Notes under the pieces: model-generated
What the model was told of the DNA's origin: nothing
Seen by the model: only the letters and a program-made list of their open reading frames with translations
The model's database searches: none
DNA from: Pomacea canaliculata
Lineage: Eukaryota > Mollusca > Gastropoda > Architaenioglossa > Ampullariidae
Assembly: GCF_003073045.1 (NCBI RefSeq)
Contig: NC_037595.1
Span: 2,542,001 to 2,606,000, forward strand
Length of the DNA: 64,000 nt
Direction of reading: 5' to 3'
Program-made: the position numbers and the translations under genes
Part shown: positions 1-34,912 of the stretch, one piece after another
How positions within the stretch are numbered: position 1 is the first letter of the stretch
How the letters are laid out: each line of letters starts with the position of its first letter

Positions 1-1572
1 CCAGTGTGACGTCATGGGTAGTAGAGGAACCGAGGCTAGAGTTATCCCTACTGCCCACGCTAGCATGCAGGCCATGTGAGCCGACCTCTTGTTAAAGTGA
101 ATGCCGATAAAGGGAAAGCGAAGGACGAGGAAACGATCCAGTGTGATGAGGCACACGATGAAAGCAGACACCTCGCTGGCCAGTAGAGACAGAAAGCCGG
201 CCATCTGACAGGCACCGCTTCTCTTCCACGTGCTGTCGTTCCACAGGTACGAACCCTGATACACACGGTCAGCGACGCCAATCATCACCAGGTAAACTCC
301 CATAATAAAATCAGACATGTTTAGGTGTATAACAAACACAGAAAACCCTAACTGGCTAGAGTTTCGTTCCAGAAACACGCGATAGATAAAACTACAGACA
401 TTACCCAGTAAACTCATGGTAGCGAATACCGCCAGTAGTGCCCGGTAGAAATCCGATCTCAGCAACGCCTCACAAGATGATATTTCGTCTTGAGGCGAAT
501 GGCAATTAACTGGATTAAAGTTTTTTGGTAGCATGGCTGGGCAGCAAAGTTTGTAATTGTTTGTGTAGACAACTTCTAGAAGGTCAAGACCTCTGAGGAG
601 ATCCCTAGGAAATTCCTTCACTGGACATCCACGAAGATCTAAAGATCTGAGATTAGGAAGGACGTGAAAACCTCGCCCTGACACAATCTCCACGCCACAC
701 TCAGACAAATTCAGGTTTTCTATATCGGAGAAAATACTGAAAACAATTGGGTCTATACTACTCATCTTTATCTGAGAGAAATCTGCGATACGTAACCTTG
801 GAAAAAATGGCACTGTATGTGAATCAGCAAACAGATGTATAATCGGATTACCAGACAGCCTAAGAATGTGAAGATTAGGTACATTTTGTAAATTTATGCT
901 ACTGATATCTTTTAATTTATTTGCCGTTAGGTCCAGAATACGTAGGTTTGGCAAATCCAGGTGACCTACCTCCTCCAGGTCACAGTCTGCAAGGCTAAGG
1001 TGAATGAGAAGCTTCTTATCCCTAACATGTCCTGGAGTCATTCCAGAGCCTTTTGCATCGAGATATCGCAAGGATGGATATTCTTGAAGTTGAATCGCCT
1101 TGGTACAAATGAATGCAAGTCCGAAACAGGTGCAAGAGTGTGGACAGGTGAGACCGCACGTCAGCTCATCGTCGTGCTGCGGACACTGGTTGAAGCCGTC
1201 GCACAGGTGGTGAGGATGAAGGCAGACGTGCGAGGCGCGGCATCGGTACAAGCCAGGACACGTGTACGTATCGCAGTCCTCTTCGTCTGAGTAGCCAGGA
1301 CAGTCGTACACGCCGTTACACCGCAGATACACCGGCAGACAGTAGTAGTCCACACCTGGACACTCGAAATGAGTGTGTGGACATGCAGTGGACTGTGCGG
1401 AGGATAGTTGCGAGTCTAGAGGCTTCACTACAAGCTGGCCTTCGTTGTCAAGGTCCACGATGGCCAGCGTCAAGATACCCTCACTCGCAAAGCCTCTTTG
1501 AAGGCACTTTGACTCGTCCGTACCAGTAACACATTGTTCTACACCGTCACACCTTTCACTTTCCGAAACGCA
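1..1572 (-). CDS. Copy 1 exon 4: LDLa, LRR and TM1-TM4 (partial)
   Basis: The acceptor TTTTTTCAG precedes CVSESERCDG, which completes an LDLa repeat. Two more LDLa repeats, an LRR N-cap (CPHSCTCFG), diverged LRRs, a cysteine hinge and TM1 to TM4 follow. No in-frame stop occurs from 1572 to 1, so the exon runs off the window. By comparison with copies 2 and 3, about 170 residues are missing. Confidence 0.85.
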
Positions 1573-4500
1573 CTGAAAAAAGAACACGTGTAAACTTTTG
1601 ACTAGGTTAAAATTTGTATCTAGACAATCAAACGTTTTATACCTTTTGCGTTTGTTTGTAAATACCGCTTTTCCTTCTTAGTTTGCTGTCGTCACATGTT
1701 AAGTCTTTCCTAAATATTGTACGATGAAATAAACAGTCAAATTCAAACGGTGCAAAAAACCTATTGCCAGTGATTCAGTCAGTCATTCTTGTAAAAACGT
1801 TCTACAGCTTAGATTGTTCTGGTATTTGCACTTTCAAAATAATCTCAGCAAGACCACTTGTTATACATTTATGTCGGCACTAAACAGAAATATGTCAGAA
1901 TAGCCTGTCGTTAATCAGATACAATCACAAAAGAGTAATTTCTTCACTGTCACTGTATCATAATACGCACACTTGAAACTAACCTTCATTTTTGCGTATG
2001 TTTGGTTAATATTTGATTTACGAGCTTAACTAGGCCTGGGTATTAATGCTAATAACAAATGTAACTACCTGGTGATTACCGCAGTCGTATTTCCCACTTG
2101 TGTAGCATGACACAAATTCACAGAAATCTTCGTCACTTCCGTCGGAGCAGTCTGAGCGATGATCACACACCAGGGTGTGCGGCACCTGATCAAAGCCGTT
2201 GTCACAATCAAAAGCCGGCGGCAGAATAGACAGCGGCGCGTCACAAGACGAGAGTGAATCTCGCACCCAACAGGCGCTGGCCACGTCACACGACAGGAAC
2301 GTGTGTGTCATGTGACCTGCTGGACATACGACTTTCAAAGAATCATTTTGCCAGGCAGAGATGTCTAAAACTGTTATCTGGGGGTTGTTATTCTCTGACT
2401 GAAGCTCATTGCCTGGATCTGCTTCTGTCTCACACAGTGCGTGACTGTTTGCGATTTGTGGTTCGTTACAGTCTCGTAGGTTTATTCCCTGCATCATATA
2501 TACCATGTAGAAAATACCGCATCCTGGCATAGTAGGGTATCCTCTGATTGTCTTAAAGTATGCTATTGTGCCATCTGTCCACTGCCAAGCATTTAGATAC
2601 CTGTCAAAAGTCGGCATGTAAATAAGAAAAATAACAACACACAATCCTTAACCCAATAATAATCACCCACTACACGATAATGATTATTACTTTTGCGTGG
2701 TATACCTTTGTGGAGACATCTTTGAAAACCAAAACACGTGAAAATCAAGCAGGAAATAATAACCAGTGTTGAGCAAAAATTGCATTTGTGCTAACTATTT
2801 TGAACAGTAAAATCTTCAGTCTTCTTGACCACTATTGTCACGGGGAGGATCACATGGGAAGACGCCGAAACTATTATCAATTATGGGTGATAGTCAACAG
2901 GTCCGGTACAGGACTACTAGTCCAGTCTTTGACCTTCGTTAAGTCTATTCTTCCTTTGATCACCGCGGCGTCGACTACCCTCCAAGGTGCCGTGAAAAAC
3001 AGTCTTCGACAGGGTGTCGTGCAGGGTCACATGGCCAAAGAAGATTGTTAAAAGTCAATGGTTCCTGGTGTCCTACGCGTGTGGCAATCTTGACAATCTT
3101 GGTTTCTTGCTAACAAATTAGTAGTTTCTATTTGGAGCTTCCATTGTAAACTTAGATCTTTCACGAGACTGCCGAAGGCTTCCCTTTAAATACCTCTCAA
3201 AGATTACTACACATAGCGCTGTTACTTAAATTACATTTTTTCTTTTCCTTAAAAATATAAGTAGTACAATATTTTACTCGCTCCTTGGCCTTATCTGTTA
3301 TTGCTGATGTATCCACGAGAAAGACGACCATACACATACATTCTAACTGATTTAATAAACGGCTAAAGGTCTTTTTCATTACTATTTTATTCTCTTCATG
3401 TGGCATAAGTAATGGTAAAAATTAAGTCATCTGCACAAAGAACGAACCTACAAATAATTACCAAGTCCGCATTCCCTATTTCGGAGAAACAATGTAGCCA
3501 CGTTACCCATTGCATTTCCTCTTTGACTACATTACACGGATTTGTAACTTAAATTACTGTTCAAAAGGCTTTGGCCGCTTTGTGCATCATATGGCAGGGT
3601 TATGATATGATTAATGCTATAAAATAGAAGGTCTGCGACCAGAAACTTAATTTATGACGGGTATAAAGAGCAAGAAGTAAAGGCTGTTATTTGGAGTAAA
3701 ATTCAAAGACAATAACTGTAAGAACAAACACTACTTACATTTGCCGCTGCACAAACATCTGAAGCATCCCTACGAAAGCCACGCTATAGTCCGCTAATCT
3801 CAGCAGGTCCACAGCGTTGTTCCACTCCGCTGGGGTGTTGAGACTGGCCAGACGCATTCCTCGAGAAAGACAAAAGTCAAACGCCTCTTTCCAAGTCACG
3901 TTAGGCAGAAGTTTCTCCCAGATATAACAAGACTTCTCGAAAAAAGGTTGGCCTACTCCACAGCGGGGACTAGTGTAGGTGCAGATAGCTTCGTCTTCAC
4001 TACCCACACAGTCAGACCTTAGGTTACAAGAAAAGTGATTACTAAAGTCGGTCCAGTTTAAGCCAGAACAGTTCCACCTACCATCCACCAACCTCACCGG
4101 AAGTGAAGACTGGTTGTGGATGCTGAAGAAAAGTCTGAAGCCTGTGTTGCTGCCGTATTCATTGCTGTAGAAATGAACGTATAAGGTGTGAGTTTTAAAC
4201 AGTCTGGGTTGCATTGGCACATTTTTGCATTTCGTGACGGTAGGCCCATTTAATATTTCGTCGACATAAAACTCTATGCCATCGTTGGGGCAAATGTTTG
4301 ATGCTTCACCTTCGACATCCATGTGAGGCACAGACACCATGACAAACCTGAGCTGAGGAACGTCAATCTTTACCCAGCTGTCCATCAACACCGGGTACTT
4401 TTTAATGCCGTCCCAATTCGGTGTCTGTATATAACCTGATAATAAAAACCAAGAACCTGTCTTTACATACAGACAAAGTTTAATCAGCAGGTAATACTTT

Positions 4501-6336
4501 AGTTTTTCGGCTTGGCAAATAATACTTAACACCACATTCTTTACTCTTGAAAAAGAACATGCTAATGAGCATGTCTAGAGAGGACAGGTTTGATGGAAAG
4601 GGTCACTGGAATCTGCCAGCACTATCAGTCTGATTAAGTCTAGTGGGTAGGACAAAGAGTTCACTGAGACAGAACGTCTGAGACAGAACGTTCTGTCACG
4701 TGCATCAGCTCAACGCGCTGATGAAGAAGGTAGTCATACACCAACGCCCTATTTGCTGGGTGGCCATTATGTTACATACACAATGTCGCGGGGGTTAATT
4801 CCAGGATTTGTGCAGACTTAGCTAATTGATGAACTGACGGTGTGAGAAACAAAAGACAATTTTGTGCTGTGCTATGTATTGGCGGTTATGTACCGGGGGG
4901 GGGGGGGGGAAATGTCAGCACAGTGACTGGGACAAGCTATCCAAATTCATATCAATCACAGTCACCATTCAATAATTGCATTACGGTTACAAATTTAAAA
5001 GATCCAGAACTGTTTACAAATCAAGCAACTCTGGTCAGCACAGAGCGTCTTTCTTTTCTATTAGGACAGCGACAGACCGCATGTCCCAAATGAACTTGTC
5101 AAAATTACAATCTAATGAAGAAATTTTACATATCCAGAATATTTTTCCGGCATCTCGCCAACAGATTTTCTCACTATATTTTCTTCCGCCCTCTAGACAT
5201 ATTTTGAAGTTCTATCCAGAAAAAGACCTTTGTAAAAGTCTTACAACAATGTTTTAAAATAACAAAGTCAAAGTGCAATGCCAGTGATATGAAAGCCATT
5301 AAGACTGCTTGATGATGTTTAGCCAAGTAAAACTGTTGTCTCTTATCAAAGTTGTTGAGCGGAAAGTCAAAAAAAGTTAAAACTTTTCAGAATGAGAAGT
5401 TTTTCTAATATCCTAGAAATAACAGAAGTGGTTTAAATCTCTACAAAACCCCACATGCACCAAACAATGGCAGAGTTTAGACCTTACCTATCTTTCCTGC
5501 ACAAAGCACGAATACGTCGATAATGAACCACACATGCGCATACAAGTGGCAAATAGAGTTCAATGCTCACCTCTTTTCTCTGAAGAAAACACAATTTCAA
5601 GTTTCGGTCTGTCATTAGCGGGTATCGCTGTAAAGTTCAAGATCACTTGAATAGCCTGCGACTCAAGGCTCACCAGAAACGTCATCACCACGATGTTGGT
5701 GAAGCTCCACACCTCGCTAGGGATGTCGGTGTCGCAGGAGTTGATGAGTCGCCGTGACGTGGCGCCTACGTCAGTCAGCACGAGCTGGAAGGTCGGGCAC
5801 TGGACGTTGATGGAGATCACGTTGATGAAGAACACCATGGACGCCGGCGCGGTGACCTGGATTTCACAGGAGGACAGTCGAGGTAGTTTGTCACTGGCTT
5901 CAGCTCTGATATCAATAACAGCCCTGTGTGTGGACAACTTCAGGTAGTGAGACGTGTTTAAGCAGCTGGTCAAGTTTCTCACAGTCAGTGCTACATATAC
6001 ACTTTGGTTTAAAGCTGATGAAGATCCAATTGTTATATTCTCCTGACTCATTCTATACGTGTTTCCAACCGTGGTGGTGTAGACAGTACTTGTAGTCATA
6101 TTTGTTGCTTGTTTACTTTCATTAACTCTATGAACTGTCAAATCTGGAGCATTCAGAAAATTAGAAACCGAAGTAGACATAACGCGCTGATAACCTCTGT
6201 AAGAGCTTGTGATGATATTCAATCTTGTGGTTTCTGTAGTCTGTGCCTGCGGGTCAGACGTCATGAGCCATGCGCTTGCAGATCGCAGAAGCAGCAGAAG
6301 CAGTGTCAGACGGAATAAGCATATATAGACAGCCAT
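1..6336 (-). CDS. GRL101-like CUB/C-lectin/LDLa/LRR GPCR, copy 1 (3' end outside window)
   Basis: Coding exons in transcription order are 6336-5571, 4435-3739, 2600-2069 and 1572-1 (continuing past the window edge). Intron phases are 1, 2 and 0, all GT-AG. The 1189 residues present run from a signal peptide through two CUB domains, an LDLa-like module, a C-type lectin domain, four LDLa repeats, LRRs and TM1 to TM4. The reading frame was checked across the last exon and is open, so TM5-TM7 and the tail should lie just beyond base 1. The family is similar to Lymnaea GRL101 and relaxin-type LGRs, plasma-membrane receptors with LDLa and LRR ectodomains; ligand unknown. Copy 1 LRRs differ clearly from copies 2 and 3, while its LDLa and TM4-region DNA is almost identical to copy 3. 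An LTR element lies 264 bp upstream of the ATG. Confidence 0.85.
2069..2600 (-). CDS. Copy 1 exon 3: end of C-type lectin domain and LDLa
   Basis: This exon completes the lectin domain (YLNAWQWTDGTIAYF ... HALCE). It continues through a cysteine-bearing spacer into an LDLa repeat ending DCSDGSDEDFC and the first half of another, YDCGNHQ. The acceptor is GACAG at 2601 and the donor CAG/GTAGTT is at 2068. It is 532 bp, phase 2 to phase 0. Confidence 0.85.
3739..4435 (-). CDS. Copy 1 exon 2: CUB2, LDLa-like module, start of C-type lectin domain
   Basis: The exon opens with GYIQTPNWDG, the typical start of a CUB domain, preceded by an acceptor ending TTATCAG. It then carries a cysteine-poor LDLa-like module (DCVGSEDEAIC) and the first half of a C-type lectin fold (CGVGQPFFEKSCYIW, WKEAFDFCLSRGMRLASL). 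It is 697 bp long, exactly as in copies 2 and 3, and ends in phase 2 within QM. Confidence 0.85.
4895..4909. repeat. Poly-G run (15 bp) in intron 1 of receptor copy 1
   Basis: Fifteen consecutive G. Such runs are prone to sequencing error, so the exact length is uncertain. Confidence 0.9.
5571..6336 (-). CDS. Copy 1 exon 1: signal peptide, linker and CUB1
   Basis: The ATG at 6336-6334 starts a hydrophobic leader (MAVYICLFRLTLLLLLLRSA), followed by a Thr/Ser/Asn-rich linker with N-glycosylation sites. A CUB-like domain follows, with the conserved block around SCEIQVTAP and four cysteines. The donor AGAG/GTGAGC gives phase 1. The CUB core is nearly identical to copies 2 and 3, while the linker is not alignable by eye. 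Confidence 0.85.
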
Positions 6337-6600: not shown

Positions 6601-7626
6601 TGTAACGGATAAGTATTTAGTAGAGGGGGTTAGGAGGGAAGATCGACAACCGTGGTAGATCTGATTTAGCGTAGTGGGCTGGAAGTTGTTTGCCCTTGAG
6701 CAAATGACGTAAACTGGGACGTCAAAATAAGGTGACGTAAAAGATAGAGGAAATTAACGTTAGAGAAAATAACGGTGGGCAGAGAGCAGACGGCGAAACA
6801 AAAGTTGGAGCTGGTGGATTTTTCTCGGGACTTTCTCGCAACTGCTGCGACAGCGGAAAAAGTATTACGGGAAGTAATACCGTGGGTAAACTACAGGTGG
6901 ATGTACTTCACAGGTCGTGAGTCACTGTAGTCCGTGTTCGCACCGTGGGGGAGCTCTGTGGCTTGGGCATCCCAGTTTCTTGGCGGGTCAAGAAACTAAA
7001 CACTGGTATCAGCGAGAAAAGAACAGAAAACTTGGTGCAAGACTGGGGCACCGACTTCCATCTGTCGCCTGGAAGGGACAGCTCTTCACAGCCTGAGAGT
7101 AAGCGCCGGTGGAGGAAAGGTTTCCTCCCGGCCTTCAGCGAATCTAACATCATCCGGCCAAACATCTAGGAGGCGGCCGCATGCGCAAGATCGAGACGTC
7201 TGCTTATAAACTGTGGTACTGTGAAAAACCATTTATTTTCAATCATAAATAGACTTCGTGGAAAGAAGATCAGTGGGATTAATTGGAATAGAGGACTTGG
7301 GAGGGACTCAAAGACTTTAAAATAAGAGGTTGATGTTTCATCGGGAGCGAACATTGGGTTCTTCATCAGTGACAATAATTTAGGAGAGTCGATTTTATTG
7401 TTACCTTTAATATTATGTGGGATGAATGATAACATATTGGTAATACATCTTGTGTGGCGAATGAAGGAGTGAATCTATCAGTGTTGATACTTTGCCTTTG
7501 TTTCATTTGACATTGTATTTAATTTGAATAATTATTTGTGCCTCTAAGAAGGTACGCCCACCCTCAAGCGATCAGGATATTTTGGTTTGTGGAAAGAATG
7601 CGCGTGTCTGCGGACGGTCCGTGACA
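6601..7626 (+). repeat. Left LTR
   Basis: This is the 1026-bp direct repeat, TG...CA bounded, matching the right LTR almost base for base. Short ORFs inside it occur in both LTRs and are not treated as genes. Confidence 0.88.
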
Positions 7627-7652
7627 TCTTGGTGACCCCCGACGTGATCGCT
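7627..7652 (+). other. Primer binding site of the LTR element (tRNA-Trp type)
   Basis: The sequence TTGGTGACCCC followed by GACGTGAT resembles the reverse complement of the animal tRNA-Trp 3' end with CCA. It lies three bases inside the left LTR, where minus-strand priming occurs in LTR elements. The tRNA match is from memory of the tRNA sequence, not a search. Confidence 0.6.
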
Positions 7653-7739
7653 TTAGGGTGAGGCGGTACTAGGCGAGGCAGGTTTACATATATTGTACAA
7701 AAGTTATTATTGGTATCTGGTGGATTATTTTGACTACTC

Positions 7740-9119
7740 GTGTTTTGCCATCGTAGGGTACATTTCTTTAAATTGTTCTTGGGAGACATGAAATTCCCGG
7801 ATATAGATAGCTTCATAGCCCAGGGTGAGGAACTGGGTTATACTAACAGTGCCCTGGAACAATACGTCGAACAGTGTCTTGAGAGGTTCGACGAGGAACA
7901 AGAGAGAGAATGGGCAGCAAGAGAAGCGGAATGGCTAGCCAAGGAAAAAGAGAGAGAAAGGGAGTTTGAGTTAGAAAGACTTAGGCTACAAGCAGAAAGA
8001 TTATCAAGAGTGAGAACAGCTAACAAAAGAGAAGCTGAGGCTGAAAGGGCAGCTAACGAAAGAGAAGCTGAGGCCGAACAAGACGACGGTCAGGAGTTCG
8101 CCGCTGTGAACCAGGGTGCAGGTGAGGGCCCGCGATCACCTCGTAAGAATGGGCCGCGTGACGACAGCACACGGTGTCACGATTATTTCCCAAGAGCTCG
8201 GTATACACCAGAGAAGAGGTCTCCAAATTTCAGTAGGAAGATCAAATGTTACGCATGTAAGGGATTCGGACATATTGCCAGAGTGTGCGCTAACACACTA
8301 GGGACTTCCCGGAGGCAATGCTACAATTGTGGACGTTTTGGTCACATTGCCCGGAACTGTCTCTACCAGAGAGCTCAATATTTAGGACCCAATAAATTCA
8401 TACTGAGAAGGAAGAACCAGCTTATGTCACAAAGAGAAATGCAAGTAGCTCAGAGAGAATCAACTCTTCAGGAGGTTCATGAAGAACTGAACCACAAAAT
8501 CAACGACCTCAGTGATGAAATCAAAGCCGTGCAACAAAGTTTACAGAACTTTAAAGAAAATACAGAACATCGTGAACGCAGATTGCAGAGAGAAATCAGT
8601 GACCGGGACAAAGAAATTATTCGGCTTAAGGCTGAGACAGAGGTTTGGCGAAAAGAAAGAGATGAAATGTGTAAACAACAGTGGGTCACAGTTGGTGACT
8701 TTGAAGAAAAAGTTCACGAACTTGAATTAGGTCATAAGAAACAGTCCGATGACCTACAGAAAGCCTTAGCAGAAATCAAATTCTTCAAGGAACATAAAGA
8801 AAGCATGAAGAAAGAACGTGAGAATACTGTAACACAAGAGAAATCTCTGGAAATGGCAAATACTGAGACTAACAAAGTGGTGGAACGACTGACAAAACTG
8901 ATAAGAGAACTCAAACAAATATACGATGACGAGAGAAAAACTAAAAAGGTGTATCTGGGCATGAGACACCAGAAGTCGAGTGAGATAGAGGAAAAGACGG
9001 ACATTAGCATTACAAGGATTCCAGTTTTTTGTAGAAACTATCAAAGGAACAGCCTTTTAAACCACAAAAGGCTTATTTCAATGGATGCTAGCTCTTCAAG
9101 AGTTTCAGTTTTCAGTTGA
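7740..9119 (+). CDS. Gag-like ORF of the LTR element, with long coiled-coil region
   Basis: This mobile-element ORF is 459 codons long; a likelier start is the Met at 7788 (MKFPDIDSF). The order is a short N-terminal region, an Arg/Glu-rich charged helix, and two CCHC zinc knuckles (CYACKGFGHIARVC and CYNCGRFGHIARNC, about 8248-8361). A long charged heptad-like stretch of about 200 residues (roughly 8400-8990) follows. Knuckles of this kind bind RNA in Gag nucleocapsids. The coiled coil downstream of the knuckles is unusual for Gag and might derive from another gene. Confidence 0.7.
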   Translation: MFCHRRVHFFKLFLGDMKFPDIDSFIAQGEELGYTNSALEQYVEQCLERFDEEQEREWAAREAEWLAKEKEREREFELERLRLQAERLSRVRTANKREAEAERAANEREAEAEQDDGQEFAAVNQGAGEGPRSPRKNGPRDDSTRCHDYFPRARYTPEKRSPNFSRKIKCYACKGFGHIARVCANTLGTSRRQCYNCGRFGHIARNCLYQRAQYLGPNKFILRRKNQLMSQREMQVAQRESTLQEVHEELNHKINDLSDEIKAVQQSLQNFKENTEHRERRLQREISDRDKEIIRLKAETEVWRKERDEMCKQQWVTVGDFEEKVHELELGHKKQSDDLQKALAEIKFFKEHKESMKKERENTVTQEKSLEMANTETNKVVERLTKLIRELKQIYDDERKTKKVYLGMRHQKSSEIEEKTDISITRIPVFCRNYQRNSLLNHKRLISMDASSSRVSVFS

Positions 9120-9256
9120 GACGATTAAGGGAACAGAGAATCTTCTCGCTGACAATCTATCCTGGGTGGAGTGGGACCAATTTATCCCGTAGAAGTGAAA
9201 GAAAAAAAAATTCTTAAATTGATTTTTTTCATTCTTTTTTTTCAGGAGGGGAGGAA

Positions 9257-10284
9257 TGTAACGGATAAGTATTTAGTAGAGGGGGTTAGGAGGGAAGATC
9301 GACAACCGTGGTAGATCTGATTTAGCGTAGTGGGCTGGAAGTTGTTTGCCCTTGAGCAAATGACGTAAACTGGGACGTCAAAATAAGGTGACGTAAAAGA
9401 TAGAGGAAATTAACGTTAGAGAAAATAACGGTGGGCAGAGAGCAGACGGCGAAACAAAAGTTGGAGCTGGTGGATTTTTCTCGGGACTTTCTCGCAACTG
9501 CTGCGACAGCGGAAAAAGTATTACGGGAAGTAATACCGTGGGTAAACTACAGGTGGATGTACTTCACAGGTCGTGAGTCACTGTAGTCCGTGTTCGCACC
9601 GTGGGGGAGCTCTGTGGCTTGGGCATCCCAGTTTCTTGGCGGGGTCAAGAAACTAAACACTGGTATCAGCGAGAAAAGAACAGAAAACTTGGTGCAAGAC
9701 TGGGGCACCGACTTCCATCTGTCGCCTGGAAGGGACAGCTCTTCACAGCCTGAGAGTAAGCGCCGGTGGAGGAAAGGTTTCCTCCCGGCCTTCAGCGAAT
9801 CTAACATCATCCGGCCAAACATCTAGGAGGCGGCCGCATGCGCAAGATCGAGACGTCTGCTTATAAACTGTGGGTACTGTGAAAAACCATTTATTTTCAA
9901 TCATAAATAGACTTCGTGGAAAGAAGATCAGTGGGATTAATTGGAATAGAGGACTTGGGAGGGACTCAAAGACTTTAAAATAAGAGGTTGATGTTTCATC
10001 GGGAGCGAACATTGGGTTCTTCATCAGTGACAATAATTTAGGAGAGTCGATTTTATTGTTACCTTTAATATTATGTGGGATGAATGATAACATATTGGTA
10101 ATACATCTTGTGTGGCGAATGAAGGAGTGAATCTATCAGTGTTGATACTTTGCCTTTGTTTCATTTGACATTGTATTTAATTTGAATAATTATTTGTGCC
10201 TCTAAGAAGGTACGCCCACCCTCAAGCGATCAGGATATTTTGGTTTGTGGAAAGAATGCGCGTGTCTGCGGACGGTCCGTGACA
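9257..10284 (+). repeat. Right LTR
   Basis: This is the 1028-bp copy of the left LTR. It is preceded by a polypurine run at about 9244-9256 (AGGAGGGGAGGAA) and followed by CTCTC, matching the five bases before the left LTR. Confidence 0.88.
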
Positions 10285-13115: not shown

Positions 13116-13116
<1 letters not shown>

Positions 13117-17513: not shown

Positions 17514-19607
17514 TCACTTCATTGCTGTTATTACTTCCTTAGTATCAGCGATAGGCTCCAAGTTTTTCATCGAGGTCGTGTTGTTCTGAGACAAATAAAG
17601 CTTCATTCGTCTGGCTTCCCTCTGGCGTCGTCTTCGCTCCTGTAAGGTGTTGAGCGTGTACAGAAACGGGTTCAAGGCCGAGTTGACCGGCAAAACTACG
17701 ATAGCCATGGCCACGTTGACCTCACCAGGAATGGACACGCCCTGAGAGGCCAGAAGGGCCACAAGCCCGATGGGAAAGCGACACAAGAAGTCCGTCACAG
17801 CCACGCTGATCAGGCGGCGAGCTATGGTTAAATCTTTGCATCTCTTGGTGCTGTCGCACATAGACATGCTGTTGGTACGAATAGACCAGAAAATGAAAGC
17901 CTGTCCAATGCCTATTAGCATTAACAGTACGAAATTAAGACCCGTTAAAACGTAAAACATGTAATCATGGCCAGCGTAATTATTACGGGTAACAGGAAGG
18001 GGGATACAGATTCCTGTTTGGCCGTAAAACTGCCAGTGTGACGTCATGGGTAGTAGAGGAACCGAGGCTAGAGTTATCCCTGCTACCCACGCCAGCATGC
18101 AGGCCATGTGAGCTGAGCTCTTGTTAAAGTGAATATCGATAAAGGGAAAGTGAAGGACGAGGAAACGATCGAGTGTGATGAGACACACGATGAAAGCAGA
18201 CACCTCGCTGGCCAGTAGAGACAGAAAGCCGGCCATCTGACAGGCACCGCTTCTCTTCCACGTGCTGTCGTTCCACAGGTACGAACCCTGATACACACGG
18301 TCAGCGACGCCAATCATCACCAGGTACACTCCCATAATAAAGTCAGACATGTTTAGGTGTATGACAAACACACCAAACCCTAACTGGCTAGAGTTTCGTT
18401 CCAGAAAGACGCGATAGATAAAACTACAGACATTACCCAGTAAACTCATGGCAGCGAATACCGCCAGTAGTGCCCGGTAGAAATCCGATCTCAGCAACGC
18501 CTCACAAGATGATATTTCGTCGTGCGGGGAATGACAGTTAACCAGATTAAAGTTTTCTGGTAGCATGGCTGGGCAGCAGAGCTTGTAGTTGTCTGTGAAG
18601 ACAGTTTCTAGAAGGTTGAGGCCCCTAAGCAGGTCATGAGAAAAAACTTGTACAGGACATCCACGAAGATCTACAGATCGTAGGTATGAAAGCAGTTGAA
18701 AACCATCCCCAGACACCATTTCCACACCGGTCTTAGACAAATTAAGGACTTCTAGATTAGGAAAAGGGCTAAAACTGCTTGGATCAAGTGTAATTATCCG
18801 TACATCAGACAAGTCTAGGTAACGAAGTCGGGTGTGTGAAGTGGGTATTACAGACATTCGCGGGAAAATAGACGCTAAAGGATTACCTGAGAGTTTCAAA
18901 GTTTTAAGATTTGGCAAATGTTGTAACTGTCCACTGTGGATAAAACTTAAATTATTTCCTGTAAGGTCAAGAATACAGAGGTTAGGTAGGGAAAAATCGT
19001 CTAGATCCTCCAGGTTACAGTTTTCAAGACTGAGGTGAATAAGAAGGCTGTTGTTCTTCACACTTCCTGGAGTCATACCTGTTCCCTTTGCATCGAGATA
19101 TCGCAGGGATTGATATTCTTGAAGTTGAACCGCCTTGGTACAAATGAATGCAAGTCCGAAACAGGTGCAAGAGTGTGGACAGGTGAGGCCGCACGTCAGC
19201 TCATCGTCGTGCTGCGGACACTGGTTGAAGCCGTCGCACAGGTGGTGAGGATGAAGGCAGACGTGCGAGGCGCGGCATCGGTACAAGCCAGGACACGTGT
19301 ACGTATCGCAGTCCTCTTCGTCTGAGTAGCCAGGACAGTCGTACACGCCGTTACACCGCAGATACACCGGCAGACAGTAGTAGTCCACACCTGGACATTC
19401 GAAATGAGTGTCTGGACATGCAGTGGACTGTGGGGAGGATAGTTGCGACTCTAGAGGCTTCACTACAAGCTGGCCAAATTTATCAAGGTCCACGATGGCC
19501 GGGGGTAAGATACCCTTAGCTGCAAGGGTTCTTTGAAGGCATTTTGCCTCGTCCACACCGGTAACACACTGTTCTATACCATCACACCTCTCGCTCTCAG
19601 AAATGCA
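17514..19607 (-). CDS. Copy 2 exon 4: LDLa, LRR, 7TM and stop
   Basis: The acceptor GTTTCAG precedes CISESERCDG. This 2094-bp exon encodes half an LDLa, two further LDLa repeats, the LRR N-cap, about seven LRRs, a cysteine hinge and all seven membrane segments, and ends AMK-stop at 17516-17514. It contains no intron, unlike vertebrate relaxin receptors, whose LRRs are split over many exons. Confidence 0.9.
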   Translation of the reverse strand, partial: CISESERCDGIEQCVTGVDEAKCLQRTLAAKGILPPAIVDLDKFGQLVVKPLESQLSSPQSTACPDTHFECPGVDYYCLPVYLRCNGVYDCPGYSDEEDCDTYTCPGLYRCRASHVCLHPHHLCDGFNQCPQHDDELTCGLTCPHSCTCFGLAFICTKAVQLQEYQSLRYLDAKGTGMTPGSVKNNSLLIHLSLENCNLEDLDDFSLPNLCILDLTGNNLSFIHSGQLQHLPNLKTLKLSGNPLASIFPRMSVIPTSHTRLRYLDLSDVRIITLDPSSFSPFPNLEVLNLSKTGVEMVSGDGFQLLSYLRSVDLRGCPVQVFSHDLLRGLNLLETVFTDNYKLCCPAMLPENFNLVNCHSPHDEISSCEALLRSDFYRALLAVFAAMSLLGNVCSFIYRVFLERNSSQLGFGVFVIHLNMSDFIMGVYLVMIGVADRVYQGSYLWNDSTWKRSGACQMAGFLSLLASEVSAFIVCLITLDRFLVLHFPFIDIHFNKSSAHMACMLAWVAGITLASVPLLPMTSHWQFYGQTGICIPLPVTRNNYAGHDYMFYVLTGLNFVLLMLIGIGQAFIFWSIRTNSMSMCDSTKRCKDLTIARRLISVAVTDFLCRFPIGLVALLASQGVSIPGEVNVAMAIVVLPVNSALNPFLYTLNTLQERRRRQREARRMKLYLSQNNTTSMKNLEPIADTKEVITAMK

Positions 19608-22600
19608 CTGAAACAGCAGTAATGTTTCTAATGTCAATGAGTAGCTACTTATTATACTCGGAATAGATATTTCTTTATGTCTTTACTTTTGTAGAGACTG
19701 AACATAATTTCTCCTTCTCATTTAATTATTGATTACTTTAAAATGATATCCACAACGTTTTATTGTGATTTATTGTTATTACTAAATTGTGTTGTATTTG
19801 AGGAAGCTGGGAAGCATTTGGGGTGTATCAGTGCTTTTATGAGGCCTTGTAGGCTCCTTTAAAAATAAGCTGTTATTTAAGTATGAAAGTTTTTAAAGAT
19901 CGCCCTGAACGGTTTGTGTTGTTTTAAGGTATCAGTTAATATAGGTGGTTTTGGAGGCTGAAATTTGCAGGTTAGGTTTATATCACCTATATCTACCGGT
20001 ATCTGAAAAACACTCAAACCATTAAAGCTGGTCTTTAACATTTTCTATACATTTTTTCATGTTACCTCATTGGGTCGCTGGTCTATATCCCTAGAACTTT
20101 GACCCATGGGTGAAATATCCACAGGTCCTTGGCCAGCTACTGACTAATAACATTGAATAGCTTACTGATAGTTAAGCGATAGTGAATTTAATAAATAACC
20201 AGAAATATGCAGTAGGTGGAGGGGGGTGAGGAATGTAGAACAGAATGGTTAGAACGCTAATATTTATGCTAGCTCTTATGGCCCATCCAGCTACCCACAA
20301 TCAACCCAGCTGTCGAGAATGCCCATGAGCTCACTTAGTGATGTGACATGTAAGGCAGCAGGAGGAGAGGGACACCACCTACACTAAAATCTGGCCCCGA
20401 AAAATGTAGGGGTCTCTAATACCTCTATTTTGAACAACTGAAAACCAGTGAAACACGACCTTCTTTTCAATAAATCTATTGAATCTACTAGTGTGAACAA
20501 GAGAAATTACCTGCTGATTACCGCAGTCATATTTCCCACTACTGTAACAGGATGCAAATTGACAGAAATCTTCGTCACTTCCGTCGGAGCAGTCCATGCG
20601 ATGATCACACACCAGGGTGTACGGTACCCGATCAAAGCCGTTGTCGCAAGTAAAGGTCGGCGGAAGAATACCCAACGGCGCCTCACACAATGACGAGGAT
20701 GTCTGCTGCCAGCAAGAGCTAGGCAGGTCACATGACAGGAAGTTATGTGTCACGTGGCCTTCTGGACACATCACTTTCGAGTCATTGGCCCAAGCGGAGG
20801 CTTCTAGAAAAGTGATATGGGGCTTGTCTTTCTCTGGACGGAGTTGACTCCCTGACTCAGCTTCCATCTCGCACAGGACGTGTGCTGGTCTCCGAACATA
20901 ACATTCCTTGAGTTTGACCCCTTGCATCATGGAGGTCATGTAGAACTGGCCGCAGGCTGGCATGGTAGCGATGCCATTGGTTGCAATGGAGTAAGCTATC
21001 GTACCGTCAATCCATTGCCAAGCGTTCAGATACCTATATCGACTCAACAGAAGGTTCATTGATAGCAAACATCATGTCTGGTCTCTGCATAGATGTATTG
21101 AACGTCCGCAAATGAACAGCGAATCTGACTGGATTTTTCCTTTGTGTGCATGACTGTGAGACTAGACAAAGGAAGATGAAAGTTGACGGTAAAATTGATT
21201 TTGTAAAGCCCCAGTTAGAAGGTTATTCGTGTTTGCATATCAAGTCTCGGGATGTAAAGGCATAAAAATTGTGTTGCACGTAAGTCCAAAGAGTTTCTAG
21301 GGAGATTGCCAGTCTAATGGCTGCTTGTCCACGACAAATTACTACGACTGCATTGTTTCTGGTTATCTAATTTATGGAGCAGCACAAAAATAAAATTTAT
21401 TTTGGGGGCTGTAGCATACCGTTTGAGAAGCCCACAGATCGATCTTTGTGTTTTAGTGTATGAAAAACCCAGTAGATATAGCGTACATGTGTTTGTTTGT
21501 TATGTGTTTCCCTGAAAAATTAAAATATCCTGTGTATAATATTTTTTGCTTAATTCTGCCAATTTACATGGAACAAGCCGTTTCTACAGCAAACAATCAA
21601 ACTAATTAAGTGTCTGCGGCAGTTACCACTACGATCAAACCCACTGGACAGAAAACGTTAATCGCTAGGAAAAACTTGTAACTACTTACATCTGCCGCTG
21701 CAAGAACATCTGCAGCAACCCCACATAGGCGACCCAGTAATCATCCAGGCTCATTAAGCTAATAGCGTTGTTCCACTCTGCCGGGGTGTTGAGACTGGCC
21801 AGACGTGTCCCACGTGACAAACAAAAGTCAAACGCCTCCTTCCACGACATCTCAGGCGAAGGCTTCTGCCAGATATAGCAAGAATTTTCGAAATAAAGTT
21901 GACCTACTCCACAGCGAGGACTAGAGTATGAGCAATCAGCTTCGTCTTCACTACCCACACAGTCAGAGTTCAGATTACAAGAGAAGTGATTACTAAAGTC
22001 GGTTATGTTTACGCCAGAACAGTTCCACCTACCATCCACCAGCCTCACCGGAAGTGAAGACTGGTTGTGGATGCTGAAGAAAAGTCGAAATCCTGTGTTG
22101 TTACCGTATTCGTTGCTGTAGAAATGAACGTATAACGCACGAGTTTGATACAGTTCGGGGAGTATTGAAGCTCTTTTGCATCGTGTCCAAGAAGATTGAT
22201 TTGAGATTTTGTTAAGATACAGTTCCACACCGTCGACTGGGCAATCCATTGGCGAGTTACCTTCAACATCGATATGAAGAGCAGACACCATGACAGCACA
22301 CTGCTCAGGAATGTCCACTTTGACCCAGCTGTCCATGAGCACCGGGTACGCTTGAATTCCGTCCCAGTTGGGTGTTTGTATGTAACCTGGTAAAATGCAC
22401 CTCATTATACCCATGTAAAACTTGACTATTCCAAGTAAAGATTAGCTTGTTACTAATACAAGCTCAAACTATAAACATTAAATAGTTTCATTTGTACATA
22501 CTGAAATAGAATTTCTAAGCATTAACAAATTTTAACAGTACGAACATGGCTGCTTAAACCTGTTTGACTGAGATAGACGTACGTATGCAGAGAAGCTAGA

Positions 22601-23394
22601 CAGTCGTATGTCGCATTACCTCTGTTTTCCGATGCAAAGACAATTTCAAGTTTTGGTCTCTGGGTGACAGGCACTGCCGTAAAGTTCAAGGCCAGTTGAA
22701 TGACTTGGGACTCGAGCATCACCACAAAAGTCATCACCACGACATTGGTGAAGCTCCACAGCTTTCTAGGGATGTCGTTGTCGCAGGAGTTGATGAGCCG
22801 CCGTGACGTGGCGCCTACGTCAGCCAGCACGAGCTGGAAGGAGTCGCACTTGACATTGATGGAGATGATGTTGATGAAGAACACCATAGACGTCGGTGCG
22901 GTGACTTGGATTTCACAGGACGACAGTCGCGGTAGTTTGTCGCTGGCTTTAGTTCTGATGTCGACAACAACATTGTGCATGGAAAACTTCAAGTTGTGAG
23001 ATGTGTTCAAGCAGTTAGTCAAGCTCTTTAATGTTAATGCTACGAAGAGACCATAATCAAGGGCTTGCGAAGATTCAGTATTGGTATAAATTTGACGAAT
23101 GCTGTAAGTGTTTTCTGTGGTAATGTTGGCGTTGTAAACAATCTTCGTCGATAAAGCATTCAGTGGACTATATGTCTGTTTATTGTCGATCATCTTACCG
23201 TCCATAAAACTTGTAGCATTATAAACATTATTAAATGAAGTTGAAACGCTCGGCGTGTTAGCCCCATAAGAGCTGCCAAAAATGTTGTCGCTCAAAAAAG
23301 AGGTTGTTTGTTGGTAAGCATATGTCTCGAAGACTCGAAATATAGGAGACAAAACCAGCCAGAGAAGCGAATTGAGCGGAGTCCCGACCTTCAT
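17514..23394 (-). CDS. GRL101-like CUB/C-lectin/LDLa/LRR GPCR, copy 2 (complete)
   Basis: Coding exons are 23394-22620, 22386-21690, 21033-20511 and 19607-17514, predicting 1362 residues with the same phases (1, 2, 0) as copies 1 and 3. Domain order is leader, linker, CUB1, CUB2, LDLa-like, C-type lectin, four LDLa, LRR and rhodopsin-like 7TM. The 7TM carries DRF in place of DRY after TM3 and NPFLY in TM7. The cytoplasmic tail is short and basic at its start. LRR and TM1-TM3 DNA is very close to copy 3; TM4-region DNA differs from the version shared by copies 1 and 3. The product should be a plasma-membrane receptor; ligand and G protein are unknown. Confidence 0.9.
20511..21033 (-). CDS. Copy 2 exon 3: lectin end and LDLa
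   Basis: It encodes YLNAWQWIDGTIAY through VLCE, a cysteine-containing spacer, an LDLa repeat ending DCSDGSDEDFC, and YDCGNQQ. At 523 bp it is three codons shorter than in copies 1 and 3. The donor is CAGCAG/GTAATT. Confidence 0.88.
21690..22386 (-). CDS. Copy 2 exon 2: CUB2, LDLa-like module, C-type lectin start
   Basis: It begins GYIQTPNWDG after acceptor TTTTACCAG and is 697 bp, the same length as its paralogues. It contains CUB2, the degenerate LDLa (SDCVGSEDEADC) and the lectin half-domain WKEAFDFCLSRGTRLASL. The donor follows CGGCAGAT with GTAAGT. Confidence 0.88.
22620..23394 (-). CDS. Copy 2 exon 1: leader, linker, CUB1
   Basis: The ATG is at 23394-23392 (MKVGTPLNSLLWLVLSPIF). The leader is less uniformly hydrophobic than in copies 1 and 3, so the signal peptide is less certain. 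The Ser/Thr/Asn/Tyr-rich linker is unlike the other copies. The CUB1 core (SSCEIQVTAP to SFTNVVVMTF) is almost the same. The donor is AGAG/GTAATG, phase 1. Confidence 0.85.
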
Positions 23395-29811: not shown

Positions 29812-31893
29812 TTACCGAATTTTTATTGTCATATTTTTGGTATCAGCGTTAGATTCTGCAATCCTCACCGAGGTCGTGTTGCTTTGAGACAAATAAAGCT
29901 TCATTCGTCTGGCTTCCTTCTGACGTCGTCTTCGCTCCTGTAAGGTGTTGAGCGTGTACAGAAACGGGTTCAAGGCCGAGTTGACCGGCAAAACTACGAT
30001 AGCCATGGCCACGTTGACCTCACCAGGAATGGACACGCCCTGAGAGGCCAGAAGGGCCACAAGCCCGATGGGAAAGCGACACAAGAAGTCTGTCACAGCC
30101 ACGCTGATCAGGCGGCGAGCTATGGTTAAATCTTTGCATCTCTTGGTGCTGTCGCACATAGACATGCTGTTGGTACGAATAGACCAGAAAATGAAAGCCT
30201 GTCCAATACCTATCAGCATTAACAGTACGAAATTGAGACCCATCAAAACGTGAAATGAGTAATCATGGCCCGCGTAATTATTACGGGTAACAGGAAGGGG
30301 AATACAGATTCCTGTTTGGCCGTAAAACTGCCAGTGTGACGTCATGGGTAGTAGAGGAACCGAGGCTAGAGTTATCCCTACTGCCCACGCTAGCATGCAG
30401 GCAATGTGAGCCGACCTCTTGTTAAAGTGAATGCCGATGAAGGGAAAGCGAAGGACGAGGAAACGATCCAGTGTGATGAGGCACACGATGAAAGCAGACA
30501 CCTCGCTGGCCAGTAGAGACAGAAAGCCGGCCATCTGACAGGCACCGCTTCTCTTCCACGTGCTGTCGTTCCACAGGTACGAACCCTGATACACACGGTC
30601 AGCGACGCCAATCATCACCAGGTACACTCCCATAATAAAGTCAGACATGTTTAGGTGTATGACAAACACACCAAACCCTAACTGGCTAGAGTTTCGTTCC
30701 AGAAAGACGCGATAGATAAAACTACAGACATTACCCAGTAAACTCATGGCAGCGAATACCACCAGTAGTGCCCGGTAGAAATCAGATCTCAGCAACGCTT
30801 CACAAGATGATATTTCATCATGAGGGGAATGGCAGTTAACCAGATTAAAGTTTTCTGGTAGCATGGCTGGGCAGCAGAGCTTGTAGTTGTCTGTGAAGAC
30901 AGTTTCTAGAAGGTTAAGGCCCCTAAGCAGGTCATGAGAAAAAACTTGTACTGGACATCCACGAAGATCTACAGATCGTAGGTTTAAAAGCAGTTGAAAA
31001 CCATACCCAGACACAATGTCCACACCGGTCTTAGACAAATTAAGGACTTCTAGATTAGGAAAAGGGCTAAAACTGCTTGGATCAAGTGTACTTATCCGTA
31101 CATCAGACAAGTCTAGGTAACGAAGTCGGGTGTGTGAAGTGGGTATTACAGACCTTCGCGGGAAAATAGATGCTAAAGGATTACCTGAGAGTTTCAAAGT
31201 TTTAAGATTTGGCAAATATTTTAACTGTCCACTGTGGATAATACTTAAATTATTTCCTGTTAGGTCAAGAATACAGAGGTTAGGTAGGGAAAAATCTTCT
31301 AGTTCCTCCAGGTTACAGTTTTCAAGACTGAGGTGAATAAGAAGGCTGTTGTTCTTCACACTTGCTGGAGTCATACCTGTTCCCTTTGCATCGAGATATC
31401 GCAAGGAGGGATATTCATGAAGCGTAACTGCCTTGGTACAAATGAATGAAAGCCCGAAACAGGTGCAAGAGTGTGGACAGGTGAGACCACACGTCAGCTC
31501 ATCGTCGTGCTGCGGACACTGGTTGAAGCCGTCGCACAGGTGGTGAGGATGAAGGCAGACGTGCGAGGCGCGGCATCGGTACAAGCCAGGACACGTGTAC
31601 GTATCGCAATCCTCTTCGTCTGAGTAGCCAGGACAGTCGTACACGCCGTTACACCGCAGATACACCGGCAGACAGTAGTAGTCCACACCTGGACACTCGA
31701 AATGAGTGTCTGGACATACAGTGGACTCCGGCGAGTCAAGAGGTTTCACTACAAGCTGGCCTAAGTTGTCAAGATCCACGATGGCCGGGGGTAAGATACC
31801 TTCAGTTGTAAAGCCTCTTTGAAGGCACTTTGCCTCGTCCACACCGTTGACGCACTGCTCTATACCATCACACCTCTCGCTCTCAGAAATGCA
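29812..31893 (-). CDS. Copy 3 exon 4: LDLa, LRR, 7TM and stop
   Basis: The acceptor CGTGTAAG precedes CISESERCDG. The 2082-bp exon ends NMTIKIR-stop at 29814-29812. It is highly similar to copy 2 through the LRRs and TM1-TM3 and to copy 1 around TM4. The tails of copies 2 and 3 diverge only in the last ~20 residues. Confidence 0.92.
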   Translation of the reverse strand, partial: CISESERCDGIEQCVNGVDEAKCLQRGFTTEGILPPAIVDLDNLGQLVVKPLDSPESTVCPDTHFECPGVDYYCLPVYLRCNGVYDCPGYSDEEDCDTYTCPGLYRCRASHVCLHPHHLCDGFNQCPQHDDELTCGLTCPHSCTCFGLSFICTKAVTLHEYPSLRYLDAKGTGMTPASVKNNSLLIHLSLENCNLEELEDFSLPNLCILDLTGNNLSIIHSGQLKYLPNLKTLKLSGNPLASIFPRRSVIPTSHTRLRYLDLSDVRISTLDPSSFSPFPNLEVLNLSKTGVDIVSGYGFQLLLNLRSVDLRGCPVQVFSHDLLRGLNLLETVFTDNYKLCCPAMLPENFNLVNCHSPHDEISSCEALLRSDFYRALLVVFAAMSLLGNVCSFIYRVFLERNSSQLGFGVFVIHLNMSDFIMGVYLVMIGVADRVYQGSYLWNDSTWKRSGACQMAGFLSLLASEVSAFIVCLITLDRFLVLRFPFIGIHFNKRSAHIACMLAWAVGITLASVPLLPMTSHWQFYGQTGICIPLPVTRNNYAGHDYSFHVLMGLNFVLLMLIGIGQAFIFWSIRTNSMSMCDSTKRCKDLTIARRLISVAVTDFLCRFPIGLVALLASQGVSIPGEVNVAMAIVVLPVNSALNPFLYTLNTLQERRRRQKEARRMKLYLSQSNTTSVRIAESNADTKNMTIKIR

Positions 31894-32177
31894 CTTACAC
31901 GAGAAAATATATAACATAAAGATCATCTCAATACTAGCTTCTAGACAGAGCTCAAAAAGAAACTGTCCACAAAATTATAAGTTGAATATAGTATGATAGA
32001 AAGCAAATCAAGGGATAAAATTTACGTTATAAGCATTTCAACAATCAGTGAAAAGAACATTGTCCAACTCTTTACCCTTACTCTAGAGTTGGAAAGTTGT
32101 TGGTACGTCTGTAAATGACCGGAAAATGAAAGCCTGTCCTATGGCTAAGAGCATCAAGAGTACGAAATTGAGGAAAT

Positions 32178-32210
<33 letters not shown>

Positions 32211-34912
32211 AAAAGAGGATGAATTATGTATAGTTACCTGCTGATTACCGCAGTCATATTTGTTGCTGATGTAACAGGAGGCGAACTGACAGAAATTTTC
32301 GTCACTTCCATCAGAGCAGTCAATACGATGATCACACACCAGTGTGTACGGCACCCGATCAAAGCCGTTGTCACAATCAAAGACAGGTGAGAGAACGGCC
32401 AGCGGCGCGTCACAGAATGACGAAGAGGCCCGCCTCCAGCAAGAGCTGGCTACGTCACACGACAGAAAGGTCTGTGTCACGTGACCTTCTGGGCACACTA
32501 CTTTTGAAGAGTCTTTCTGCCAGGCGGACGGAGCTACCTGTGTGATCATGAGCTTGTCGTTCTTGTGCTCTGACGGGAGATGAGTTCCTGGGTGTGCTTC
32601 TGTCTCGCACAGAACGTGTGCTTGTCTTGGTTCACTGCAGTCCTTAAGTTTAATTCCTAGCAGCAGTGCGTCAAAGACAAAAAACCCACAGGCTGGCATA
32701 GTTGCATATCCATTGATGGTCTTAAAATACGCTATTGTGCCGTCTGTCCACTGAAAAGCATTCAGATACCTGTCGATAGTCAAAAGTACGTGATAGTCAA
32801 TACTAGTCCTATACATCAAAGCCTCCCATTACTTTCGATCGAGTACTTTTTTTAAATTTGCTGAATTTTCAAAGCGGTTCACTGTTCATATTATTTTACG
32901 AGACAAAAGTCTGATGGGCTTAGTGTGCAATATTCAGTGAAAATTTAGAATCTGGACATGATTGTTTAAATGTTTGTATCTCAAATTTCACAAAAAATTG
33001 AGACCGTTGATGAACATGTTTATGTAGGTAAAGATAAACAAGAAAGCTGTAAATCAAATCAGTCCCTCCTTGTGACCGAGGCTTGACTGTCAGACAAACG
33101 AAATGCTAGATATGTCAAAAATACAAGTTATAAAAGAAAACCGATCTTCCTCTACTTACATCTGCCGCTGCAAGAACATCTGCAACATCCCTACAAAGAC
33201 GACGGTGTAGTCTGCTAGGCTCATTAAGCTAATAGCGTTGTTCCACTCTGCCGGGGTGTTGAGACTGGCCAGACGCGCCCCACGTGACAAACAAAAGTCA
33301 AACGCCTCCTTCCACGTCATCACAGGCGAAGGCTTCTGCCAGATATAACAAGAGTTTTCGAAAAAAGGTTGGCCAACCCCACAGCGGTCACTGGTGTAGG
33401 GGCAGATAGCTTCGTCTTCACTACCGACGCAGTCAGACCTTAGGTTACAGGAGAAGTGACTGCTAAAGTCGGTCCAGTTTAAGCCAGAACAGTTCCACCT
33501 ACCATCTGCCAGCTCAACCGGAAGTGAAGACTGGTTGTGGATGCTGAATAAAAGTCGGAAGCCTGTGTTGCTGCCGTATTCATTGCTGTAGAAATGAACG
33601 AGCAATGCTCGTGTTTGGTACAGTGTAGGAGGAACTAGTTTTGATTTGCATCTTGTCCATGAAGACTGATTTAATGTTTCGATGACGTACAGTTCCACAC
33701 CATCGCCCGGACAATAGAATGGCGAGTCACCTTCGATGTCGATATGAGGCAATGACACCATAATAGCACTCTGCTCAGGGACGTCCACTTTCACCCAGCT
33801 GTCCATTAGCACCGGGTACCTTTTATGCCCGTCCCAGCTTGGTGTTTGTATGTAACCTGGCATTTAATGCAGGAAACTTGCATTACTTAAATGTGTGAGT
33901 AACTGAGCCAAAATATAGAGAATTAACTAGTATAAGCTTGAATCATTTGTAAGTCACCTTAGTGCTTATTAATCATTTTCATACAGCCTTGTAGATACGC
34001 AGATTTTCCTCGTTGTTTTACTGGTATTAAAACGAATGGGAACAGTCTCAAGAAAAAGTTAACTAAACTAACAGGAAGATGCAGAGGAAGAGTAAAGTGC
34101 GCACCAATACCTAGACAGACTCACATGACACTCACTTTACCTCTAGTACTCGAAGTAAACAGAATTTCAAGTTGTGGTCTCTGGGTGGCAGGCACTGCCG
34201 TAAAGTTCAAGGCCACTTGAATGACTTGGGACTCAAGGCTCACCAGAAACGTCATCACCACGACGTTGGTGAAGCTCCACAGCTCGCTAGGGATGTCGTT
34301 GTCGCAGGAGTTGATTAGTCGCCGTGACGTGGCGCCTACGTCAGTCAGTACGAGCTGGAAGGACGTGCACTGGACGTTGATGGAGATCACGTTGATGTAG
34401 AATATTGTGGACGCCGGCGCGGTGACTTGGATTTTACAGGAGGACAGTCGAGGTAGTTTGTCGCTGGCTTTAGTTTTAATATTAGTTACAACGTTTTGTG
34501 TAGAAAACGTCAGGTAGTGAGACGAGTTTAAGCACTCGGTGAAAGTCTTCGATGTTAATACTACTTGATGACTCGGCTCCAAGACTTTTGATGAAAGCGA
34601 TGTTGTGTTTTCCGGACCTAGGTCAAGCACTTCATTCTTTTTGTAGAAGGCCTCAGTCGATACATCAAAGATGAGATCATATGTCTGTTCACTGTTAACT
34701 CCTTTGTCATCTCCTAAACCTACAGTGTTCTGTTCATTAGACCATGAAGTGGAGATAGGAGGAAAATTAGCCCCATCAACGTTGACAGCAGAATTAAAGT
34801 AACTGTTCATCGTCGTCTGGGTTTTCAGGTAAGAATTTTTCGAGAGGACCTGAACTACAAACAACAGGGACGTCATGGAGAACAACACGCAGAGCAAAGT
34901 CCAGAACTTCAT
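29812..34912 (-). CDS. GRL101-like CUB/C-lectin/LDLa/LRR GPCR, copy 3 (complete)
   Basis: Coding exons are 34912-34141, 33856-33160, 32769-32238 and 31893-29812, giving 1360 residues. Approximate positions are: signal 1-24, linker 25-115, CUB1 115-257 (Cys 127, 159, 182, 203), CUB2 258-363, degenerate LDLa 379-409, C-type lectin 416-544, LDLa at 620-650, 661-690, 733-763 and 767-802, LRR N-cap 806-820, LRRs 830-1000, cysteine hinge 1007-1031, 7TM 1039-1315. TM2 has HLNMSDF, TM3 ends DRF (1143-1145), TM7 has NPFLY (1309-1313). It should act as a plasma-membrane receptor. LDLa plus LRR plus 7TM resembles relaxin receptors and GRL101; the CUB and lectin modules suggest glycan or protein binding, but no ligand can be read from sequence. 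Confidence 0.92.
32238..32769 (-). CDS. Copy 3 exon 3: lectin end and LDLa
   Basis: It encodes YLNAFQWTDGTIAYF to VLCE (lectin end), a spacer with cysteines, an LDLa ending DCSDGSDENFC, and YDCGNQQ, which joins CISESERC of the next exon to form another LDLa. The donor CAGCAG/GTAACT is followed in the intron by a GA/GT dinucleotide run (plus-strand 32176-32212). Confidence 0.88.
33160..33856 (-). CDS. Copy 3 exon 2: CUB2, LDLa-like, C-type lectin start
   Basis: This 697-bp exon begins GYIQTPSWDG. Between CUB2 and the lectin domain, the LDLa-like module keeps DCVGSEDEAIC but lacks two of the usual six cysteines. The lectin domain starts CGVGQPFFENSCYIW. The exon ends in phase 2. Confidence 0.88.
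34141..34912 (-). CDS. Copy 3 exon 1: signal peptide, linker, CUB1
   Basis: The start is placed at ATG 34912-34910 because it opens a clear signal peptide (MKFWTLLCVLFSMTSLLFVV). The frame stays open 34 codons upstream but without an ATG. The linker has many Ser/Thr/Asn residues. CUB1 carries four cysteines. The donor is AGAG/GTAAAG, phase 1. Confidence 0.88.

Follow-up and report, generated by a model that had tools for sequence, protein, structure and literature searches.

Among the closest described systems, SudRes2, a schistosome-resistance locus of Biomphalaria sudanica published in 2025, contains 12 GRL101-like genes in 440 kb, ten of which code for receptors with leucine-rich repeat (LRR), low-density lipoprotein receptor (LDL) and C-type lectin-like domains; the cluster also encloses a Zn-RING inhibitor-of-apoptosis (IAP) gene and is bordered by a BIRC gene, and both the validated variant and the top outlier fall in non-coding parts of the IAP gene and in no receptor gene (PMC12297450; this and the other publications are cited from the portions of text available). 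Another G protein-coupled receptor (GPCR) of B. sudanica, with LDL and LRR domains, is among the hyperdiverse pathogen-receptor candidates (PMC10875847). The LRR of relaxin receptors is regarded as the hormone-binding part, and activation requires the LDL class A domain (LDLa) (PMC4837482, PMC5468325). Comparable genes are found in Pomacea canaliculata, in a stretch of 64,000 nucleotides (the window; assembly GCF_003073045.1, contig NC_037595.1, positions 2,542,001 to 2,606,000), where six-frame reading revealed three tandem receptor genes, A, B and C, on the minus strand within about 35 kb. The reading favoured here, with moderate confidence, is that of a recognition array, in which a CUB/lectin/LRR ectodomain would vary from copy to copy while a shared transducer is kept by gene conversion, most likely for the sensing of non-self.

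Each gene consists of four long open frames, with introns that are all GT-AG and have phases 1, 2 and 0 in A, B and C, and the predicted modules follow the common order CUB-CUB-LDLa-lectin-LDLa-LRR-seven-transmembrane domain (7TM). An earlier note on this DNA had proposed one architecture for the three neighbours and proteins of 1360-1362 residues; the same four exons, phases and module order were indeed recovered, with predicted lengths of 1362 residues for gene B and 1360 for gene C, while gene A ends at the window edge after 1189 residues. Chance or unrelated exons were ruled out, since exon order, phases and splice sites are common to the three copies. The exons are the following.

5571..6336, minus strand, gene A exon 1: N-terminal hydrophobic, signal-like segment, then a variable linker and the putative CUB1 (5572-5991), from open reading frame (ORF), splice sites and alignments
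3739..4435, minus strand, gene A exon 2: CUB2, LDLa1, first part of the C-type lectin (Pfam CUB 28.7 bits)
2069..2600, minus strand, gene A exon 3: lectin remainder, cysteine-rich linker, LDLa2, start of LDLa3
1..1572, minus strand, gene A exon 4, truncated at the window edge: LDLa3 remainder, LDLa4-5, LRR, 7TM to about the end of transmembrane segment (TM) 4
22620..23394, minus strand, gene B exon 1: signal-like N-terminus, then linker and putative CUB1 (22621-23040)
21690..22386, minus strand, gene B exon 2: CUB2, LDLa1, first lectin part (Pfam CUB 18.4 bits, below cut-off)
20511..21033, minus strand, gene B exon 3: lectin remainder, linker, LDLa2, start of LDLa3 (Lectin_C 25.5 bits spanning exons 2-3)
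17514..19607, minus strand, gene B exon 4: LDLa3 remainder, LDLa4-5, LRR, complete 7TM, stop
34141..34912, minus strand, gene C exon 1: signal-like N-terminus, then linker and putative CUB1 (34142-34561)
33160..33856, minus strand, gene C exon 2: CUB2, LDLa1, first lectin part
32238..32769, minus strand, gene C exon 3: lectin remainder, linker, LDLa2, start of LDLa3
29812..31893, minus strand, gene C exon 4: LDLa3 remainder, LDLa4-5, LRR, complete 7TM, stop

All three N-termini have a hydrophobic, signal-like stretch (judged by eye) followed by a poorly conserved linker, and residues 1-110 show 26-33% identity between copies. Pairwise synonymous divergence (dS) is 1.31-1.54 in this linker and 0.28-1.24 over CUB1, CUB2, LDLa1 and lectin; for the pairs B-C, A-C and A-B it is 0.58, 0.69 and 0.64 in CUB2 and 0.58, 0.87 and 1.24 in the lectin. 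In exon 4 the same pairs give 0.07, 0.05 and 0.02 in LDLa4-5 (residues 720-800; range 0.017-0.071) and 0.07, 0.06 and 0.08 in residues 1028-1188 of the 7TM, approximately TM1-4 (range 0.060-0.079); for the rest of the 7TM dS is 0.086, for the B-C pair only. Between these two parts lies the LRR, where gene A is separated from B and C by a dS of 0.77-0.80, with 63% identity, and B from C by 0.07. In 20-codon windows, gene A falls to 42% nucleotide identity within the LRR, and on its flanks the identity is 98-100% in residues 731-810 and 92-100% in residues 1031-1190. On gene C the corresponding blocks are these.

31465..31704, minus strand, LDLa4-5 block, gene C residues 731-810: all three copies nearly the same, putative conversion tract
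30865..31404, minus strand, LRR block, gene C residues 831-1010: B resembles C, whereas A has diverged strongly
29905..30813, minus strand, 7TM block, gene C residues 1028-1330: near-identical copies (A to residue 1188 only), proposed conversion tract

The low dS of LDLa4-5 and 7TM, which brackets the diverged LRR of gene A, argues strongly, if not finally, for gene conversion (or an equivalent recombination) that would homogenise the core in these three copies, one of them incomplete, and that would have acted most strongly on parts of exon 4. In each of the three pairs, third-position differences are more clumped than in any shuffle (0/5000 each), although in shuffle tests on sites, here and below, significance is inflated by the non-independence of neighbouring sites within a codon. 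It is improbable that the near-identity of LDLa4-5 and 7TM is due instead to strong selection on silent sites or to a recent partial duplication: such an origin would agree with the B-C match in exon 4, which ends within a few bases of the splice site, and is helped by the small and incomplete set of copies, but dS falls about tenfold or more on either side of gene A's diverged LRR, silent constraint so deep over some 240 codons would be exceptional, and the copy most like C switches along the gene. Indeed, sites common to two of the three copies number 168 for BC, 8 for AC and 3 for AB in the LRR, and 12, 12 and 6, respectively, in residues 1011-1188 (hinge and first 7TM part). Self-matches of at least 150 bp (blastn, 1e-10) are 13, of which 12 lie on exons and one is a long terminal repeat (LTR) pair, with none in the introns and the remainder; this restriction indicates that the duplications are not recent. 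GC content at third positions also varies by block in exon 4 of genes A to C: it is lowest in the LRR (0.34-0.36), intermediate in the 7TM part (0.59) and highest in LDLa4-5 (0.68-0.70), a pattern that could reflect GC-biased conversion.

By its predicted domains, the core is a type C LRR-containing GPCR (LGR), with a rhodopsin-family 7TM, an LRR ectodomain with LGR-type hinge and LDLa before the LRR. The match to 7tm_1 is above cut-off in all three genes (partial in A), and the best Protein Data Bank (PDB) match of residues 182-651 of gene C exon 4 (LRR and 7TM) is the relaxin receptor RXFP1 (7tmw, E 2.9e-55, phmmer), followed by glycoprotein-hormone receptors; an NCBIfam scan gave three weak bacterial matches to exon 4, far under cut-off. 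The LDLa/LRR/7TM core, which the earlier note knew from GRL101 and relaxin receptors, was found by Pfam in all three genes. TM2 and TM5 are each interrupted by an intron in RXFP/LGR3 genes, and LGR4 has a phase-0 intron after TM7 (PMC11863921); in B and C, exon 4 carries the complete 7TM together with the stop codon (A is visible only in part), which argues against both C1 types. This gene structure, together with the presence of several LDLa, suggests that the receptors probably belong to the GRL101 class (type C2).

As for the ectodomain, Pfam cut-offs were exceeded by LDLa and LRR in A, B and C, by CUB2 in A and C (28.7 and 25.8 bits, cut-off 21.4; 18.4 bits in B) and by the lectin in B (Lectin_C 25.5 bits, cut-off 22.6); the remaining modules are called because they are paralogous to the copies that match. 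The lectins of A and C are under the cut-off, yet they are 69-76% identical paralogues, and lectin matches were found in PDB. Thus, of the two CUB and one lectin domain that the earlier note had placed before the core, CUB2 and the lectin are borne out by Pfam, while CUB1 has no match by Pfam, PDB profile or comparison with CUB2. A low-confidence predicted fold of CUB1 has CUB structures as its best matches in Foldseek; however, the Foldseek list alone is not proof, since 8 of the 25 matches with E up to 0.001 are not CUB by description (toxin or toxin-antibody entries, a lysozyme inhibitor and a phage structure), and AlphaFold modelling of the whole exon 1 gave no usable fold (pLDDT 31.3). 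The calcium-dependent sugar-binding motifs of C-type lectins are EPN or QPD plus WND. Neither EPN nor QPD occurs in any of A, B and C, which have LRDC, LKEC or LKDC at the WND place, and the WND reported (first occurrence) falls outside the lectin, at residues 1108-1110 of the 7TM region; lacking these motifs, the module is unlikely to perform classical calcium-dependent sugar binding. Ldl_recept_a reaches 70-74 bits, with four to five stretches per gene before the LRR: Pfam finds five in C and four in A and B, where the fifth comes from alignment, and LDLa1 alone scores just 10 bits. In exon 3 of A to C, a cysteine-rich stretch (residues ~546-627) between lectin and LDLa2 matches no Pfam family in full-length scans; residues 546-640 are 63-69% identical between copies.

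Amino-acid change is concentrated in possible recognition surfaces. The proportion of nonsynonymous differences (pN) is 0.25-0.31 in the long loop of the lectin, against 0.08-0.12 in its first half, and 0.22-0.38 in the middle of CUB2; these two are the most changed of the five sub-segments compared, with pN/pS of 0.43-0.74 (pS being the synonymous counterpart, raised in the lectin loop too), and are places where ligands might bind. In the proposed mechanism, the outer CUB/lectin modules and the LRR would bind different protein or glycan ligands; the membrane-near LDLa/LRR/hinge would relay binding to a 7TM and G protein common to all copies, in the manner of RXFP1; conversion would hold this transducer common while the recognition parts diversify; and a parasite or microbe would be detected on immune or surface cells. 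The role in innate immunity that the earlier note had considered possible gains indirect support from the SudRes2 report and the mosaic evolution, and among the roles considered non-self recognition is ranked first, an endocrine one second and a chemosensory or gamete one third.

The endocrine role, in which the copies would bind insulin/insulin-like growth factor (IGF)- or relaxin-like peptides at the LRR and CUB and lectin just tune binding or localisation, is judged rather unlikely. The closest relative with a solved structure is RXFP1, GRL101 has been put forward as a possible second IGF receptor (PMC8286064) and type C2 LGRs have been suggested to bind insulin-like peptides (PMC6267866); conversely, an LRR in gene A with dS ~0.78 and 63% identity to B/C would be odd for one common hormone, and a hormone receptor has no need of several copies in tandem whose lectin and CUB modules diverge. 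Slightly less credit is given to chemosensory or gamete recognition, with the diversified ectodomain sensing cues from outside on sperm, egg or sensory tissue: the CUB fold occurs in seminal proteins, the spermadhesins, and a GRL101-like gene of the crown-of-thorns starfish is higher, though not exclusively so, in sensory tentacles than in tube feet (PMC6267866), but direct evidence is absent here and the published clustered, lectin-bearing relatives sit at a parasite-resistance locus (PMC12297450).

Several points weigh against the recognition array as well. No segment has dN/dS above 1, the highest values (0.95 and 0.97) coming from very few changes, so that positive selection is unsupported; pS is also raised in the lectin loop. 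Shared sites clump in exons 1-3 as well (335 runs, with 408.5 expected from shuffling, 0/5000), and a shorter quiet patch is seen in CUB1 around residues 190-220, so that exchange may reach beyond the exon 4 signalling core. CUB1 would be a CUB domain by fold only; the union of the four exons in one transcript is inferred from ORFs and splice sites; and tandem expansion, LDLa and LRR equally fit hormone or chemosensory receptors.

The surroundings of the cluster contain the following elements.

40466..44407, minus strand, IAP gene upstream of gene C: BIR frames 44407-43868 and 43766-43407, RING frame 40747-40466 (Pfam)
55796-59672, plus strand, exons of an ABCC/MRP-type transporter, beyond the IAP gene and probably extending both ways (best match ABCC3/MRP1, E 9.9e-26)
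6601-10284, LTR element immediately upstream of gene A, flanked by direct repeats at 6601-7626 and 9257-10284 (99.8% identity)
11139-11225, minus strand, relic resembling the beginning of the lectin domain, located between A and B (58.6% identity, E 2.8e-4, tblastn)

The IAP gene scores 104.5 and 59.7 bits for BIR and 52.7 bits for the RING (zf-C3HC4_3), matches BIRC1 and BIRC2 in PDB, and could be a partner of the receptors. In the transporter ABC_tran is above cut-off and ABC_membrane, with 26.3 bits, under the cut-off of 28; further exons were recognised by eye. The LTR element, probably young given the identity of its repeats, contains a gag-like ORF (7734-9119) with CCHC zinc knuckles, and the ORF listing has no other frame above 101 residues wholly between the repeats. 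No fourth receptor copy was found in the window (tblastn, E 1e-3), except for the 29-column lectin-like relic at 11225-11139, a possible remnant of another copy.

Compared with GRL101 of Lymnaea stagnalis, a type C2 LGR, the genes share multiple LDLa, LRR and a rhodopsin 7TM, but GRL101 has twelve LDLa and six LRR, with lectin and CUB unmentioned in the text available, whereas five LDLa, two CUB and a lectin are predicted here. RXFP1 and RXFP2 (type C1) share the LDLa-LRR-7TM core, of which 7tmw is the best PDB match, but have a single N-terminal LDLa; to our knowledge they have neither lectin nor CUB, and the adhesion-class GPCR ADGRG6/GPR126 lacks the LRR/LDLa/lectin set. The RXFP/LGR3 type is reported as lost in molluscs (PMC11863921), and its TM2 and TM5 introns are missing here. 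The earlier note knew of no characterised receptor with all four ectodomain module types; literature searches, within the text available, yielded no paper with the full set of CUB, lectin, LDLa, LRR and 7TM, but tandem GRL101-like receptors with LRR, LDL and lectin had been published in 2025 (PMC12297450). In PMC11521371 the letters CUB occur five times, each time within a DOI string of the reference list. A CUB pair in one receptor and conversion of the signalling core are undescribed in the available text of PMC12297450, PMC11722531, PMC8286064, PMC11863921, PMC4079206, PMC6267866, PMC11521371 and PMC10875847. As a rule, GPCRs are not classed as variable recognition receptors, and diverging outer modules on a homogenised core would show a hormone-receptor scaffold turned into a recognition array.

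With SudRes2, as far as described, the cluster shares tandem GPCR genes, an ectodomain of LRR, LDL class A and C-type lectin-like domains and an adjoining RING/BIR IAP gene; it differs in its two predicted CUB domains and in having 3 genes in 35 kb against 12 in 440 kb. Receptor type and IAP neighbour suggest that the two may be the same locus, although IAP genes are numerous in molluscs. That the genes form a variable pathogen-recognition GPCR family at the SudRes2 counterpart, with a conversion-kept LDLa-7TM transducer and the IAP/RING gene as linked partner, is proposed tentatively, as doubtful but worth considering. GRL101-lectin clusters being already published, it is mainly the CUB pair that is undescribed at SudRes2, since CUB has no occurrence in the available main text of PMC12297450. 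If the two loci correspond, the Pomacea cluster would extend a locus associated with the resistance of snails against schistosomes by a predicted CUB pair and a mechanism of conversion, and would indicate the exons to compare between resistant and susceptible animals.

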